This document shows, piece after piece, positions 35,480 through 60,395 of a stretch of DNA of 64,000 bases. The position numbers were made by a program, and so were the translations under genes. The stretch covers positions 868,001 to 932,000 of the forward strand of contig CP073218.1 in NCBI GenBank assembly GCA_020342235.1. Reading direction: 5' to 3'. The stretch's first letter is position 1, and the number at the start of each line of letters is the position of its first letter. This DNA is from Saccharomycopsis phalli (lineage: Eukaryota > Ascomycota > Saccharomycetes > Ascoideales > Saccharomycopsidaceae). Under the pieces are notes generated by a model that saw only the letters and a list, made by a program, of their open reading frames with translations, did not search any database and had not been told where the DNA came from.

Positions 35480-36355
35480 ATTAATATTTAACATGCTACG
35501 TAGTATAGTAACTAGGATACGAGTTGGAAAAATATATCCACTTGACAATTCGGAGAAAGTAGGACGGTTTACTTGAAGATGAAATACCTTTTGTCAGAGA
35601 AGAACAAAGACCTATTGGGATTGGTTCTTTAAGATGGTGATTTATCCACCTTCCACGACTTTACCTGTGCAGCACTATTGGCCTCTTGAGCCCAAGAACA
35701 GAAATACAAAGGAGTCACCACTGCAATCAAGCCTGCCTTTTCTTCTCAGATAGCCGAAGCTTAAACTTGTAGATTCTACACGGCTGAGCTCGACTGGTGG
35801 TTTTCTTGTTGCTACGGCGCGTTGGGGGATAGCTTTAGAATGTACACTGGATCGGAGTGGCTCAAGTAACCTACGACCTGGAGAATGCTCATTGCTCCTC
35901 GAATACCAGATTCTCTATATTTATGTCATTACTTAGTGGGAAGTTTCATCCTGTTGTAGAGTTTTCTTCCAACTATATGGCCGTCATCAGTCGTAGACGG
36001 CAAAGTATCAATCTCTTCTGGGAGTCTAGTATGGTTATAGTCTTGTGTAAATATTTCAGTAGTTAAGGGATCAATAAGAACATCAATTCAATCATCACCG
36101 CCGTTCTGATTATTCAATTACAAAGGAACAAAACTCATCTATAATTAACTAAATAACTGAGTATAAGTTTGTAACGATGTCACACTCAATAGACAATGAA
36201 ATCGACATGGTCATTATAAGATTAGCAGAATTGACAAGACTAGCATAATTGCCGGAAAGCAGTGGAACGGGTGTGTAGCCAAGAAACATGTGAGCAACAA
36301 ACGGTGTATGTTCAGAAAGAAATGTATTCCTTTTTATTACAGTGTCTTTAATCCG
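35480..36355 (+). repeat. Dispersed repeat of unknown class, split by a LINE fragment
   Basis: Two parts, about 35480-35640 and 36215-36355, match parts of sequences at about 52255-52620 and 62540-62708. Shared landmarks are AACTAGGATACGAGTTGG, a TGTCAGAG-AGAAC...TTGGGATT block, and ACTAGCATAATTGCCGGAAAG near the end. Between the two parts lies a LINE 3' fragment, so the LINE landed in an older element. The class is not clear; solo-LTR-type remnants are possible. The copies are diverged and look old. Confidence 0.4.
35640..36063 (+). mobile_element. 5'-truncated LINE copy (3' end)
   Basis: This stretch matches the 3' end of the LINE at 54993-55760 in opposite orientation. It begins in the Cys/His region of ORF2 (CACGACTTTACCTGT resembles the HDFTC segment of the longer copy) and passes through GTCACCACTGCAATCAAGCC. 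It then runs into the non-coding tail: CTTCCAACTATATGGCCGTC, GTAGACGGCAAAGTATCAAT and CTGGGAGTCTAGTATGG. The tail ends at about 36063 without a clear microsatellite. The reading frame is decayed. Confidence 0.65.
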
Positions 36356-45065: not shown

Positions 45066-45339
45066 AGGCTTGTATATCGTAAATAGTGGAGCTTCTTCCA
45101 ATGGCCGAGATTACCTATTTATCCGGTTATTTGACCCAAAGAAACAATTCTACCGGGATTTACCTATTTACACGGTTTATAATGGATGCTTTTGAAAGTT
45201 GCGTAAATCTTTAGTTGCAGGCCCAAGGCAATCCTCAGTGGAAAAGCCTTATAGATGGCTCGTTGCTCAAATTATTTGGCAATGGTGACCCAAAGTGAAA
45301 ACGATGTGGGATTCACTCCTCCATCATACATGACCTCCT

Positions 45340-45765
45340 ATGCCCAGAGCTCTTGGAAGGTGGAATTCCATCACGCATTGAGTAAATATTAGATTCCACT
45401 AATGAAATACGCAACACGCAAAAGTGTTTGCCAATCGGTTTACAAACTAGCGGAGTTTTACCAGGATGTATTGGAACATGATTCTCCAGCACATGGTGAG
45501 ATTCAGCTGTCAAACTTGAACAAGGTGACCAGCTTATACAATCAATACATGCACTAAGCACTACAATACGACTGCTCATGTTGAAGTTTTAATCCCAAGC
45601 AACCGAATGAGGGCTGACAGGGTTTTCTTTAATAATGGTGACAGGGTTTCTTCAGCAATGGTGACAGGGTTTCTTCAACAATGGTGCACGATGTTCCTGA
45701 ATAAAGATATATTTATTGAATAACTATAATGCCAGAGACAATATAGCTAAATACAAAGATACATA
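45340..45765 (+). mobile_element. Diverged SINE-like copy (family A)
   Basis: The copy aligns with 59330-59695 over most of its length: an ATTCCATC-CGCATT block, TACGCAACA, then AAAGTGTTTGCCAA. It shares its 3' part with the SINE at 58203-58676: GATGTTCCTGA, GAGACAATATAGCTAAATAC. A tRNA-like head is not obvious. Boundaries are approximate and no target duplication was identified. Confidence 0.5.
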
Positions 45766-46400
45766 TTATTCTTACTGAAAGATAATGGGCTGTAGTTCGC
45801 CTATGTATATCACGTGACAAGACTCAGGACATGCAACTGCTAACGTTGAGGCAGTTTACACGTGACGTAAGCATGATCACAGCTACAGCATCTGTATGGG
45901 ACCTGGCAAGACTTGAGAAGCTTGTCAGAGGAAACGGCAAAGTTTTTGAGCAAGAATATGACTCGATGGATGACGTGTGGTTATGGAATAGTCCATTATT
46001 GTTTCGGATTGTTCCGGGTTGCTCCCAATTTTCTAATTCTTCAATTTTCCAATTTCCAATTTCCAATTACTTCTAATTGTTAACCAACAAGTCCAACCGT
46101 ACTTGGCTAATTATTCAATATTACAGTCACAATACATATATCATTGTAAAAACATGCCTGAAAATACGCTTGCTAACAGTGACATACATCATCTCCACAT
46201 CCATTTGACCGAAGACGCCACAAAGTCCAACCAAATAGCGACAATAGTACCAGTAAAAACCCACCAAAAGCCCAGCTCTTACCATCACATCTCTTTAACC
46301 CCTCCACCAAACCAATTCCCAGCTGCATCAGACCCCCCAGGGCTGCTGGTTATGAGCCCGCCAATATTTGTAAATGTTTTCCAGTGGGCACCAGGCCATC

Positions 46401-48235: not shown

Positions 48236-48496
48236 ACTAGTAGTAATAAATAAGCAATGGTAGTGTCAGGCTATCTTACAGACGTAAACTATGTATATTT
48301 TAAACTAAAGACCCCAAGTCTAAACTACCATCTTTTATACCTGCATCTCTCATGTGTTTTACTTCAATCTGACTCAAGCTTCCACAGGAAATGGGTAGTG
48401 TAGCAGGTCCATATCATAGAGAAAGTCTCTTTACAAGTATAAATAATCTCTTTCCAAGTATAACACACCCAATAGCACAATGTAATCCAATAATAA

Positions 48497-48860
48497 TGCT
48501 TATTCAAGGCTATAGCTATACTAGACTCCCAGAGGAGATTTATACTGCCGTCTACGACTTATGACGGCCATGTAGTTGGAAGAAAACTCTGCAACAGATG
48601 AAACTCCACTATTAATGGTATAAATATAGAGAATTTGGCATTTGAGGAGCAATGTGCTTTCGCTAGGTAGGTGACTTGAGCCACTCCGACCCAGAGTACA
48701 TTCTACGGCTCTCCCAACATGCTGTAGCAAAAAGAAAACCACCAGTTCAACACAGATGAGTAGAATCTAAAAGTTTTTTAACCTTGGCCTTGTCTGAGAA
48801 GAGGTGTGCTTGGTTAGCCGTGGTAATTCCATTGTATATCTGATCTTGGCTGGAAAGATA
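48497..48860 (-). mobile_element. 5'-truncated LINE copy (3' end)
   Basis: On the minus strand it starts within ORF2 (predicted ITTANQAHLFSDKAKVKKLL, akin to ITNATQARVLFSDKARLKNLI in the longer copy). It then passes through the non-coding tail and ends at ATTATTATTGG. The tail keeps the GACGGC hairpin and TAGTATAGCTATAGCC. It is an independent insertion from 47950-48235. Confidence 0.65.
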
Positions 48861-48989
48861 TCCAATAGTAATGATATGTACAATAGCAAAATACAATCTA
48901 ATAGAAATACATACAATATCAAAATACAACTTAATAGTAGAATACAATTCAATGGCATAATGCATCCAATATCAGAACACAATCTAATA

Positions 48990-54992: not shown

Positions 54993-55024
<32 letters not shown>

Positions 55025-55760
55025 TTTATTTAAGGCTATAGCTATACTAGGCTCCCAGGGGAGATTTATACTTCGCCGTCTATGACTAAGGACGGTGCTG
55101 CTATATAGTCGTCTAAAGAAAACTCTGCAACAGAGATAAAAAACTTTCGACCAGAGCTTGTAAATATGTAAGGTAATGAGCATTGAAGGGGCAATGAGTT
55201 TTTCGCCTGGATCTTTGGAGGTAACGTTAGCCACCCCCTCCCCAAGGCACTAACTCGGTAGCCCTCCTAACGTGCTGTAACAAAAAAAAGGGAAAACTAC
55301 CGGTCCAGCACCGACGAGTAGAATCCTATAAGATTTTTAAGCCTCGCCTTATCTGAGAAGAGGACGCGAGCTTGAGTAGCGTTGGTAATTCCTTCAGGAA
55401 TCTGTGCTTGGGCTCGAGAGTCCAATAGTATCGGGCATGTGAAGTCGTGAAAACTAGATAGTGTAGCATTTTCACATCGGCTGCATGATGGACTCGCTTC
55501 GGCATTGAATAAAGTCTTAGTTTTATGTGAGACTAGGCTTTGGCCGCTAAGGAGTTGACTGATTTTGCTTAGTGCTCGTTTGGGCCCAACTAGTGCTTCT
55601 GAAAGTAGTAATGTTGACTTTTCAGTGGTAACTTGAATTGGACCTCGGCGTAGCGTCATGTAATGAGTCGGTAGTCGGATTTCATTGGAGTCAATGAGTT
55701 CTTGCCATTCCTTGGTGACCTTTTTCCTTGTTAGGTGACCTTTTTCCTTGTTTTCCAGAA
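54993..55760 (-). mobile_element. 5'-truncated LINE (non-LTR retrotransposon)
   Basis: The longest LINE copy, 768 bp. On the minus strand a 121-codon frame (55297-55659) keeps an ORF2 C-terminus with a Cys/His motif, CSRCENATLSSFHDFTC (C-x2-C-x8-H-x3-C), followed by ITNATQARVLFSDKARLKNLI. Similar Cys/His motifs end many fungal LINE ORF2 proteins. A non-coding tail of about 300 nt follows and ends in (ATT)n at 54993-55023. It is flanked by an imperfect duplication of 32-35 bp (54958-54992 and 55761-55792), probably the target site. Clade (L1/Ylli/Zorro-like or Tad-like) cannot be fixed from this fragment. It lies in the promoter side of KEL3. Confidence 0.8.
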
Positions 55761-56937: not shown

Positions 56938-58189
56938 TCACGTCATCGATACTAGAACCCCCTTGAAAAGCCGCATAGTCAACTGGCTCTCCTTCTTACA
57001 AGGATCCGGGGAATCGTCGCGAGATTCCAAGCTTGAAAACAACTGCGCCATTCTCACAATCGTATACCCTGCCTCAGTCAAGGCATACTGCTGCCCCAAA
57101 CAGATTCTTGGCCCACCATTAAAGGGCAAAAACTCCCACTGGGAACCCAACTTCGGATCCTCGGCCCACCGTTCAGGCCGGAACTCAAGTGCATCGTCAC
57201 TATAAAATCTCTTGAGACGGTGTGTCGCGTATACGTTGTATGCGACCTTGGTTCCCTTGGCGACAAACGTCTTTTTCTTGCCGTCAGGACCACCGCCAAA
57301 CGGAAGCGTGGTGTCGCGGTTTGCAACCCTGAAATTCATTGGCACCGCAGGATACAACCGTAGCACTTCGTTGAGCAAGTTTTGCAAGTACTTGCAGCGT
57401 TTCAAGGTTTCAAACGAGATTGTGTCGGTAGAGTCGCCGAAATGTTCGCGGACGACGGCCTTGAGCTTTTTCCAGACATCTGGCCGGCGGGCCAACTCGT
57501 AAAATGTAAAGGACATCAAGCCCGCAGTGGTGTCTCTTCCGGCTAGTAGCACGTTCAACAACTGGTCCTGGAGCACCTTTGGGTCTCTTGTTTCCTTGAT
57601 CAACTCGTGCAAAAACACATATTTCCCGCCCGACTGCTTTTCGATTTCGTCTGGCGACGCGGCGAGAGCCTTGTCGACATAATACCGCGGGAACTTCTGC
57701 ACCTGTTTGCACGACTCGTGGAACTCCTTGCCATTGACAAGGAAATCCAAGTTGTTGAGCCATGTCCGGGTGGAAACGTACGCCTGGGACACTTCAAAAG
57801 CCTTGGGGAACTCCTCACGGCCGTCGAAATTCAGGGTAGAATCTGTCCCCACTGAAGTATCCTGTAGCGACGCCACGCTCTCGCCAATCAAGAACTCGGT
57901 GGCTGTATCCACGGTCAACTTGAAGAAGAGCTCCTGGAGATCGATGGTGGCTCCCTTGGAGTTGCGCACGTGCTGCACAAGGAACTGCAAGTGGTGCTCC
58001 AAGCTCTGCAACTGGGAAACCTGCTGACGGGAGAACTGGGGACGCAACATTGCTCGAGAGTGTTTCCAGCCGTCGCCCTCCAAGGTGAAGATGCCGTCGC
58101 CTAGCAACGGCTCGAAATGCCGGTGCCGTGTTCCAAAGCCAAAGTCGTCAAACTGGGTCGCCAAAATCGCCTTGATGTTGGCCGGGTCT

Positions 58190-58202
58190 CTTGTCAAGTA
58201 CA
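58190..58202. repeat. 13-bp target-site duplication, left copy
   Basis: CTTGTCAAGTACA occurs here and again at 58677-58689, exactly flanking the SINE. Confidence 0.9.
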
Positions 58203-58676
58203 GGGGCAGGAGGTTTGGCCGAATGGAAAACACCTCATGCCTTATGGAGGGCGCATCATGAGGTAGTTACCGGGTTCGAGCCCCACCAAACCGCCCCAAT
58301 ACTCAAGAAAGTCTCCAGAAAGAGCACACTACGCCTCAGAAGGGCAATACAAGGAAGTCTCGCAAACGAGCAATGAACGACCCCGACGAGTCGTGCGCCC
58401 ATCGTCACGAGATTCAGCGGCCGGATAGCGCCGGCATTTAGCCGAAGGATGGCCAGGCTTCTCGCATAACCAATAGCCAGTCACGTTAAACCACTAACAA
58501 CACTGCTCCCATTGAAGTTTTTCAGCCCATATAACCGTTTAGGGTTATAAAGGGTTTTCTTCAATAGAATGCTGCCTCAGGATGTTCCTGAGTGAAAATA
58601 TATCTGTCGAATCACCGTGTTTCCGGAGACAATATATAGCTAAATACAGAACTAAATATACTTACTTACTTACTTA
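58203..58676 (+). mobile_element. tRNA-derived SINE (family A), young copy
   Basis: A 474-bp insertion within CYP52. The 5' end folds as a tRNA-like domain: GGTTTGG (58212-58218) pairs with CCAAACC (58286-58292), extended by GGGGC (58203-58207) with GCCCC (58293-58297). A box TGGCCGAATGG (58216-58226) and B box GGTTCGAGCCC (58273-58283) form a type 2 pol III promoter; the A box resembles that of tRNA-Ser/Leu. A body with GC-rich hairpins (for example GCCGGATAGCGCCGGC) follows, then an AT-rich 3' part. The tail is (ACTT)n at about 58660-58676. Exact 13-bp target duplications flank it. No open frame of note. The element is on the strand opposite the host gene. Confidence 0.85.
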
Positions 58677-58689
58677 CTTGTCAAGTACA
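58677..58689. repeat. 13-bp target-site duplication, right copy
   Basis: Second copy of CTTGTCAAGTACA, right side of the SINE in CYP52. Confidence 0.9.
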
Positions 58690-59201
58690 CTGGGGCTCCA
58701 AGAAGCAGAAACCAAAGGGTATCGCGGTCGTACTGCTCATACCGGGCCACGTTCCAGTCAATATGATCGCCGGTTTTCTTCAACTTGATGCCCTTGAAAG
58801 GCTCCGAAGAGGTGATCCACCAGCTTTGGTTGATGTTGGTGGGCATAGCGCAATGGTTGCGGTACATGAAAAGCTGCACCTGGATGTAGCGAGCAAGCTT
58901 ATAAATCACAGCTAGCACTAAAAACACAAGTGCCCAGCGCACGGTTTTGTCGGTATATTCCATGGTCGAGAATATTCAGGAGTCGGCGACGAGGGGAGTG
59001 TTTATAAGTCATTCCGGCTAGCTCATGCATGCAGTGGGGATATCTGCAAACACTCCGCCTGTGATCCTGGTACGGGAAATTTGGGTTTCCAAAGTATGGT
59101 GAGGTATGGCTAAGCATTGGCTGACAATTTTAAATCAGTACGCATGACGCTTGGAATATTTGAGCCGAGGAGGTTTAAAGCCAAGGGCAATGGAAGGGTG
59201 C

Positions 59202-59329: not shown

Positions 59330-59695
59330 ACTCAAATTCCATCGTGCATTATCAAACACTAGACCCCACCGCAATACGCAACAAGTTGAAAAGTGTTTGC
59401 CAACCACAAATCAGACCACACTTGTAGAGTTTGCCAAAACGTCTTGACACATGATGAGATTCAGCAACCAAACGTGACAACCTCGGCAACCAGGCTCATA
59501 CACAACAAACACTACGTATCAACAATACAACTGCTCAAATGAAAGCCTAATCCTGGACAGCTACTTGAGAGCCAAAGGGTCTTGTTCAACAATGGTGCCT
59601 CGGGATGTTCCTGTGTGAATTATCTTTGCCAAATAACCGTGATTCCAGAGATGTTATATAACTACATACAAAAATATTATTATTATTAATATTAT
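59330..59695 (+). mobile_element. Diverged SINE-like copy (family A)
   Basis: Shares with the young SINE the GATGTTCCTG...GTGATTCCAGAGA...ATATA-CTA-ATAC 3' part and a GAGATTCAGC motif in the body. It shares longer stretches with the copy at 45340-45765. It ends in an (ATT)n-like tail at about 59670-59695 rather than (ACTT)n. The tRNA head is lost or unrecognisable. Confidence 0.5.
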
Positions 59696-60395
59696 TAATA
59701 TCCAAACTATAATACTCCAGCTAATACTCACAGCGAATACCTTGCCTCGCAACGGACAATGAATGGTATTATTTACAAGCATTAGCAGAGCCAGATTATC
59801 ATCGACAATACAATAGGCCAATGTACTACCCAAAGAACAATGGGCATGTCCAAAAACACCAAGCAGATCTAGAACTGAAACAATCTACGCATTCCAAAGC
59901 TTAAATGGGTACCTGGTTTCATCTGCCATGTTGCCTGTAACTTTGGGATGAAGCGGTGCACCATGACGTGTGGGTTTAGACGTTGGATTCATGATACAAT
60001 GAGGTGTATGAGAGGGTAGGATGTATAGGAGAGGTGTATGAGAGGGTAGGATGTGTAGGATGTATAGGAGAGGTGTATGATATATAGGAGGCGTAGGATA
60101 TATAGGAGGTGTAGGATATATAGGAGAGGTGTATGAGAGGTATATGAGAGGTGTAGTATGTGTAGAAGGTATAGAAGGTATGGCATACATTGAGTAATAT
60201 TGGCACAGGCTAATTGGCAACATTGCATTGCTTGAAACAGACATTCATAAAGGTATATATTTGATATTAGTAGATGGATCAATGGGATTATGGACAGTAT
60301 ATATTAATAAACAAGTAAACCAGAACCAGCAACCAGAACCAGAAGCCAGCCCAACCCAACCCAACAAAACCAATCAAACCAACTCATACAACACC

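Follow-up and report, generated by a model that had tools for sequence, protein, structure and literature searches.

The window analysed here, which comprises 64,000 nucleotides of the Saccharomycopsis phalli contig CP073218.1 and has a GC content of about 46%, carries a SINE insertion with a perfect 13-bp target site duplication (TSD) that splits a CYP52-type cytochrome P450 frame, both halves of which are still open (Table 1). An insert of 474 bp with such a duplication had been described in an earlier note on this DNA, and both its coordinates and the presence of CTTGTCAAGTACA on either side are confirmed. The claim that a CYP52 frame is broken, with both sides open and P450 motifs preserved, also stands. 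Indeed, when the empty site is rebuilt from the flanks by removing the insert, a stop-free frame of 516 codons is obtained, 512 of them from the ATG, which includes AGRDTT, EVLR and FNGGPRICLG, sequences that we take to be P450 motifs. The top named relative of the 3' part of the gene is cytochrome P450 52A13, at 63% (among the best 120 of 1245 matches). The insert is antisense to the gene, for which the genome (14,148,124 bases searched, in 8 contigs) holds one paralogue, which is 70% identical and lies within an open frame of 522 codons on the same contig, and, besides it, two distant P450 matches (four of four candidates scored, the first being the query locus). Elsewhere, the window encodes NOG1, whose best named match is the S. 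crataegensis protein with 84% identity. In the genus Saccharomycopsis, the codon CTG is likely translated as serine, as one paper indicates for S. schoenii.

Table 1. Features at the insertion site (positions in the window)
Feature	Position	Strand	Evidence
Broken CYP52-type gene, 3' part with P450 motifs	56938..58189	-	Pfam PF00067 E=1.7e-53, this part alone
Target site duplication, 5' copy CTTGTCAAGTACA	58190..58202	.	13-bp perfect match to 3' copy
SINE copy, 474 bp	58203..58676	+	at least 42 genome matches; 35 young copies
tRNA-like head, SINE bases 1-94	58203..58296	+	bases 1-98 fold; tRNA-Leu(UAA) match
Predicted Pol III A box TGGCCGAATGG	58216..58226	+	pattern match, 0 in 100 window shuffles
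Predicted Pol III B box GGTTCGAGCCC	58273..58283	+	pattern match
SINE-specific body, bases 95-200, without LINE match	58297..58402	+	blastn and alignment
3' part, LINE-derived	58403..58659	+	blastn for bases 248-457; multiple alignment to about base 201
SINE bases 365-457, 89/93 identical to young LINE	58567..58659	+	alignment
Predicted 7-bp hairpin common to LINE 3' end	58576..58592	+	both minimum-energy folds
Short-unit tail ACTTACTTACTTACTTA, then target site duplication	58660..58676	+	sequence
Target site duplication, 3' copy CTTGTCAAGTACA	58677..58689	.	13-bp perfect match to 5' copy
Broken CYP52-type gene, 5' part from ATG	58690..58963	-	open frame

The insert is classified as a SINE by its predicted RNA polymerase III (Pol III) A and B boxes, by the lack of a long reading frame (the longest stop-to-stop frame among the six frames has 74 codons) and by its 35 young copies. 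The earlier note had proposed a fold-back, tRNA-like head, and this can be retained for the fold and the boxes but not as a recognizable tRNA. Indeed, bases 1-98 fold at -42.7 kcal/mol (z -3.25), with 1 of 200 shuffles being equally good, and the composite A-box/B-box pattern, whose boxes are 57 bases apart from start to start, has a single match in the window, at the SINE; in contrast, ARAGORN does not call the head as a tRNA and Rfam returns 0 matches for it up to E=1. Among the class-II tRNA stretches compared, the best local match to the head lies at the start of a tRNA-Leu(UAA) gene, which agrees with SINE bases 5-24 at 18 of 20 positions, a figure whose weight is limited by the A box being common to all of these stretches. 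The comparison drew on 20 stretches that cover 21 of the 36 genome positions matching a motif for the start of class-II tRNAs; ARAGORN recognized tRNA genes in 18 of the 20. The head can be regarded as tRNA-like on the basis of the predicted Pol III boxes together with this short tRNA-Leu match, and the 20 matching bases offer a hint at its parentage, short of proof. Pol III transcription could terminate early at the TTTTT stretch found at base 316 of the SINE, to an extent that depends on the species.

The segment is multi-copy and not single-copy, as at least 42 blastn matches of the insert are present in the genome (40 of 319 candidates scored), two of which, the window itself included, are identical across all 474 bases. 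In particular, a genome scan that allowed up to 3 mismatches located the 28-base head at 34 sites, all with 0 mismatches, and the 30-base 3' end at 41 sites, 34 of them exact. The union of the exact head and exact end sets amounts to the 35 young copies, among which L091 has the head with an altered end and L092 the end with a cut head. Forty of the at least 42 matches were extracted with their flanks. Over the 457-bp core, 30 of the 31 gap-free young copies are identical and the remaining one, L089, has one difference, corresponding to 1 in 14,167 bases; the count excludes L090, with an altered start, L091, altered at head and end, L092, which is truncated, and L093, which has indels and is 96% identical across its match. 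The young copies stem from a very recent burst, because the cores are nearly identical while older relatives stand at 72-95% identity (L094-L098; a further one, L112, is at 89% over part of its length), and the very young age that the earlier note had assigned to the element is thereby upheld. The yeast mutation rate is around 3e-10 per base per generation, and 7e-5 differences per base translate into at most a few 100,000 generations, as an order of magnitude only; near-identity of the copies could also be maintained by gene conversion. The same note had placed the insert in a second family, which finds no support in the window, where the A/B-box pattern matches once and the other SINE similarity consists of two LINE 3' fragments. 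No second SINE family was found there with this pattern, which an unrelated or decayed one would escape.

Perfect TSDs of at least 8 bp are present at 31 of the 40 loci examined, that is, at 31 of the 35 young copies, with a length of 8-18 bp (mean 12.5) and with 29 of the 31 at 11 bp or more. The script did not find a TSD of at least 8 bp at L067 and L070, and a separate scan gave 7 bp in L067. The head motif is missing in L092, L094 and L098, and L091, L095, L096 and L097, being without the exact end motif, were unscored; by eye, L092 is truncated at base 25 at its 5' side and has a 13-bp TSD. At the target, A is found at -3 in 15 of 31 copies, T at -2 in 18 and C at -1 in 14. Position +1 is A or T in 30 of 31, and both this value, inflated by overlap with the G-free tail, and the microhomology with the tail are overstated because the start of the TSD is partly set by overlap with the A/C/T tail. 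At the other end, the full head of L081, L085 and L091 is preceded by an additional, partial one of about 16-25 bases, which looks like the product of template jumping. The TSD of L081 and L085 lies outside the extra piece, which was therefore inserted along with the SINE. Jumping and truncation at the 5' end of the RNA are habits of non-LTR reverse transcriptases.

Other copies have also landed in genes. Of the 31 sites scanned (L059-L089), all but one have a TSD of at least 7 bp, and at 5 of these 30 both flanks are open in a single consistent frame for 85 codons or more; a sixth follows with 62 codons. The CYP52-type P450, hit in antisense, is one of the five long-frame sites. At L064 (G000:C1:1562354-1564029), the same SINE core breaks an aspartyl protease frame, again in antisense, with PF00026 recognized in both pieces. 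The SINE lies in sense within an ORF without a Pfam match in L060, within an open frame in L075 and within a LINE ORF2 in L081, while at the 62-codon site, L071, it is antisense within a LINE ORF2 (both ORF2 assignments by eye from the translation). Gene hits are therefore not limited to one orientation.

As to the machinery of transposition, an RVT_1 search of the genome gave 91 matches and, among the matches listed, the domain falls within frames of exactly 1124 codons at 5 places. One group among the matches is a LINE that begins with AAAATG, where the 5' ends of 5 copies coincide, and that measures 5054 bp before the tail; its 1124-codon ORF2 frame contains Exo_endo_phos_2 (PF14529) and RVT_1 (PF00078), the endonuclease and reverse transcriptase domains expected of a Tad/I-type LINE. 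The best relatives of this ORF2 are 24-27% identical and have the same domains, several of them also with RNase H; the domain search reported no RNase H domain in the LINE ORF2 itself. The genome holds LINE copies with full open frames and with TSDs of the same length class as those of the SINE, since 3 of the 5 copies have TSDs of 13-14 bp, none being found for the other 2. Among the 12 LINE 3' ends examined, 9 are identical over 246 bp, the reference copy counted, and L103 has 5 differences over the same length, L107 (older, with indels) and L110 (5'-truncated) being without a gap-free alignment. With 3' ends so nearly identical, LINE and SINE look similarly young. ATT repeats close all 12 of the 3' ends examined in this SINE-related group and are also found at the end of a second LINE lineage (2 of 2 copies examined).

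Further LINE remnants are scattered in the genome and in the window. In L110 (G000:C1:658400-659000), a LINE copy is reduced to its last ~150 bases and has an apparent 12-bp TSD, as judged by eye, and a short LINE 3' end can therefore insert alone. Older LINE 3' fragments, at 69-75% to the young LINE, occur in the window at 59331-59696 (+) and 45234-45774 (+), and an older fragment at 55000-55716 (-) combines an ORF2 match of 40% with the last bases of the LINE and has ATT repeats at its end. The repeats at 35643-36055, 48489-48870 and 55010-55460 of the window are 68-81% alike and resemble, by eye, the 3' ends of the second (ATT)n lineage.

The source of the SINE's 3' part is the 3' end of the (ATT)n LINE found in the same genome. 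SINE bases 248-457 are 82% identical to the best LINE copies by blastn, and the relation up to about base 201 rests on a multiple alignment and a 12-base exact match; the last ~17 bases of the SINE and its tail unit are unlike those of the LINE. A consensus-structure argument for the shared end was tried and rejected: the same hairpin helix occurs in both folds, yet the z-scores of the whole segments are near zero, at only -0.35 and -0.74. Similarity to the young LINE is not uniform along the SINE, as 107 of 152 positions agree in bases 201-364 and 85 of 115 in bases 248-364, as compared to 89 of 93 in bases 365-457 (p=3.7e-7 and p=1.8e-5, respectively). An identity of 96% in the last 93 core bases, against 70-74% just upstream, suggests that the SINE may have re-captured the end of the LINE. 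With regard to this re-capture only, a serious competitor, credited with a little less than an even chance, is that the 3' identity reflects purifying constraint on the site recognized by the reverse transcriptase, with no exchange between the elements. A shared recognition end is expected in stringent LINE/SINE pairs, according to the available text of PMC5135761, and the boundary at base 365 was set after the alignment had been viewed; for this reason, and with the copies being related, the segment p values serve as a guide only. Constraint of this kind, however, should also slow the last segment within the SINE lineage, whereas the two segments are alike when the young SINE is compared with four older SINEs (p=0.31, 1.0, 0.50 and 0.28) and when the young LINE is compared with three other LINE copies (p=0.63, 0.13 and 0.35). 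In contrast, the SINE differs by segment not only from the young LINE but also from each of three further LINE copies (248-364 versus 365-457, p=2.0e-4, 3.2e-5 and 0.0135). We therefore lean towards re-capture of the LINE end, with modest confidence, the old copies being decayed and the segment short.

A different partner LINE had been suggested in the earlier note from the contrast between the (ACTT)n tail of the insert and an (ATT)n LINE. The tails turned out to be variable, in that identical cores carry ACTT, AACTT or ATCTT units. Of 37 SINE-type 3' ends, among them those of the old copies L094 and L098 and of a stray piece lying in the L084 flank, 16 have AACTT as the sole unit after the first, 6 have ACTT alone and 3 ATCTT alone, while 3 show mixtures and 9 have no further unit; some of the units scanned belong to the TSD, and ATCTT stays outside the TSD in L064, L065, L071 and L075. 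Often the tail unit runs on into the first bases of the TSD, which is what annealing of the nicked target to the tail of the RNA would predict. The best single case for a tail set by the target is the suggestive L091, in which ATACTT is absent, the 12-base unit CTAAATACAGAA is iterated and the flank continues with CTA, the tandem array making the boundary ambiguous. Permutations for a target-dictated tail gave p=5e-5 (18 copies) and p=0.001 (21 copies), values that are partly circular because the TSD was extended leftwards into any matching tail end; as a claim, the target-dictated unit was thus rejected, and it is retained as a lead only. The (ACTT)n tail is no family hallmark, the units apparently being made at insertion. 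Given the variation of the unit and its continuity with the TSD, (ACTT)n therefore says little about which LINE acted.

Mobilization by another LINE, one that itself ends in (ACTT)n, is unlikely. It would fit the tail unit and the last ~17 bases, which depart from the (ATT)n LINE, and the old SINE relatives L094, L095 and L098 also end in ACTT, so that this end is not brand new. However, no LINE ending in (ACTT)n was found within 3 mismatches of the last 30 core-and-tail bases of the SINE, a threshold beyond which a LINE end would escape the search: the 41 sites near this end comprise the 34 exact young copies, 4 old SINE relatives (L094, L095, L098 and L112) and 3 ATT-ended LINEs (L113, L114 and L115). 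Moreover, the second LINE lineage ends in ATT too, the unit varies among identical cores, and the tail of L096, an old SINE relative, is of the ATT type. With a 3' part that comes from the (ATT)n LINE and with tail units that vary, the suggestion of a different partner is not sustained.

It is very improbable that the SINE acts as a removable intron that leaves CYP52 intact. The antisense (ACTT)n tail does make tandem GTAAGT donors where the insert starts in the sense of the gene, but the antisense insert is without a CTRAY branch-site motif (a motif not taken from this yeast) and other SINE copies lie within ORFs in both orientations; with donors found but no branch motif, the intron was rejected. 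An assembly or sequencing artefact has a negligible chance of explaining the insert, as 31 copies each have their own TSD and the assembly was obtained from long, single-molecule reads at 600x, as stated in the available text of PMC8468998.

Very probably, therefore, the insert is a new copy of a LINE-tailed SINE with a tRNA-related head. The SINE shares its 3' end with the resident (ATT)n LINE and probably relies on it for mobilization. Dispersal of the copies, their near-zero divergence, their TSDs, the LINE-related 3' end and the broken CYP52-type frame are all observed, as are LINE copies with full open frames and TSDs of a similar length. As for the steps, Pol III would transcribe the SINE from the A and B boxes in the head, and the endonuclease-reverse transcriptase encoded by ORF2 of the (ATT)n LINE would recognize the SINE RNA via the shared ~93-nt 3' end. 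The endonuclease would then nick a target that loosely follows ATC|(A/T), and the freed target end, after pairing at a few bases with the tail of the RNA, would prime cDNA synthesis. Slippage during this priming may build the short-unit tail, and cutting of the second strand would generate the TSD of ~12 bp. A more extended scheme, in which LINE and SINE form an amplifying pair, slippage from target microhomology sets each tail and the SINE re-captures the end of the active LINE, is tentative and rather doubtful as a whole; if true, the tail of the SINE would record how each copy was primed and would not mark a family.

SINEs are well known in animals, plants and filamentous fungi. The arrangement described here is like that of UnaSINE1 and UnaL2 of the eel, in which SINE and LINE share a 3' end that is followed by a short tandem repeat; according to the available text of PMC5135761, stringent LINE/SINE pairs of fish share the 3' end and the short repeat, and a shared 3' stem-loop end has been reported for Tad1 in fungi. 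The UnaL2 reverse transcriptase reportedly recognizes the end of UnaSINE1 (PMC5135761), whereas recognition in this yeast is proposed from the sequence. In addition, the eel pair has one pentanucleotide repeat (PMC5135761), in contrast to ATT for the LINE and ACTT, AACTT or ATCTT for the SINE in the present case. Fungal SINEs, as far as the available text of PMC5063351 goes, are described in filamentous species, one with a Tad/I-type LINE-like end. Indeed, AfuSINE2-1a of Aspergillus fumigatus is, by its description, tRNA-related like the present SINE, with a 3' part similar to the 3' UTR of Tad/I-type LINEs; it differs in that its copies are reported to be very few and diverged and the LINEs mostly not intact (PMC5063351), as opposed to the 35 near-identical copies and the LINE copies with full open frames found here. 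Two other SINEs of filamentous fungi, both cited in PMC5063351, are similar by description: MgSINE in size (472 bp, ca. 100 copies) and Foxy in copy-number class (ca. 160 copies).

Within budding yeasts, Ylli of Yarrowia (PMC5014426) and Zorro3 of Candida albicans (PMC7175516) are LINEs described as L1-type. Zorro3, which is active in S. cerevisiae, has a very short 5' UTR (PMC7175516), as does the LINE found here, whereas no TSDs were identified for Ylli (PMC5014426), in contrast to those seen in 3 of the 5 LINE copies here. The available text of these accounts describes no SINE partner for either element (PMC5014426, PMC7175516), LINE-driven spread of tRNA genes in Yarrowia is mentioned as speculation only (PMC5014426), and the word SINE is absent from the main text of a review of transposable elements in four yeasts, in its available form (PMC7175516). 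The S. phalluae genome paper lists 0.06% SINE and 3.91% LINE, with no family described in its available text (PMC8468998). No described SINE family of a budding yeast was found in the literature searched, subscription papers lying mostly outside the search.

Collectively, the sequences point to a very young, LINE-tailed SINE family that, judging from the literature, would be new for budding yeast and whose likely partner LINE keeps its full reading frames open. The mechanism is an ordinary one in an unusual place, a budding yeast. A 14-Mb yeast in which ~35 near-identical copies coexist with a candidate partner LINE that has open frames may represent a simple test system, in which the choice of SINE RNA by the LINE protein, the origin of short-unit tails and gene breakage by bursts could be tested.
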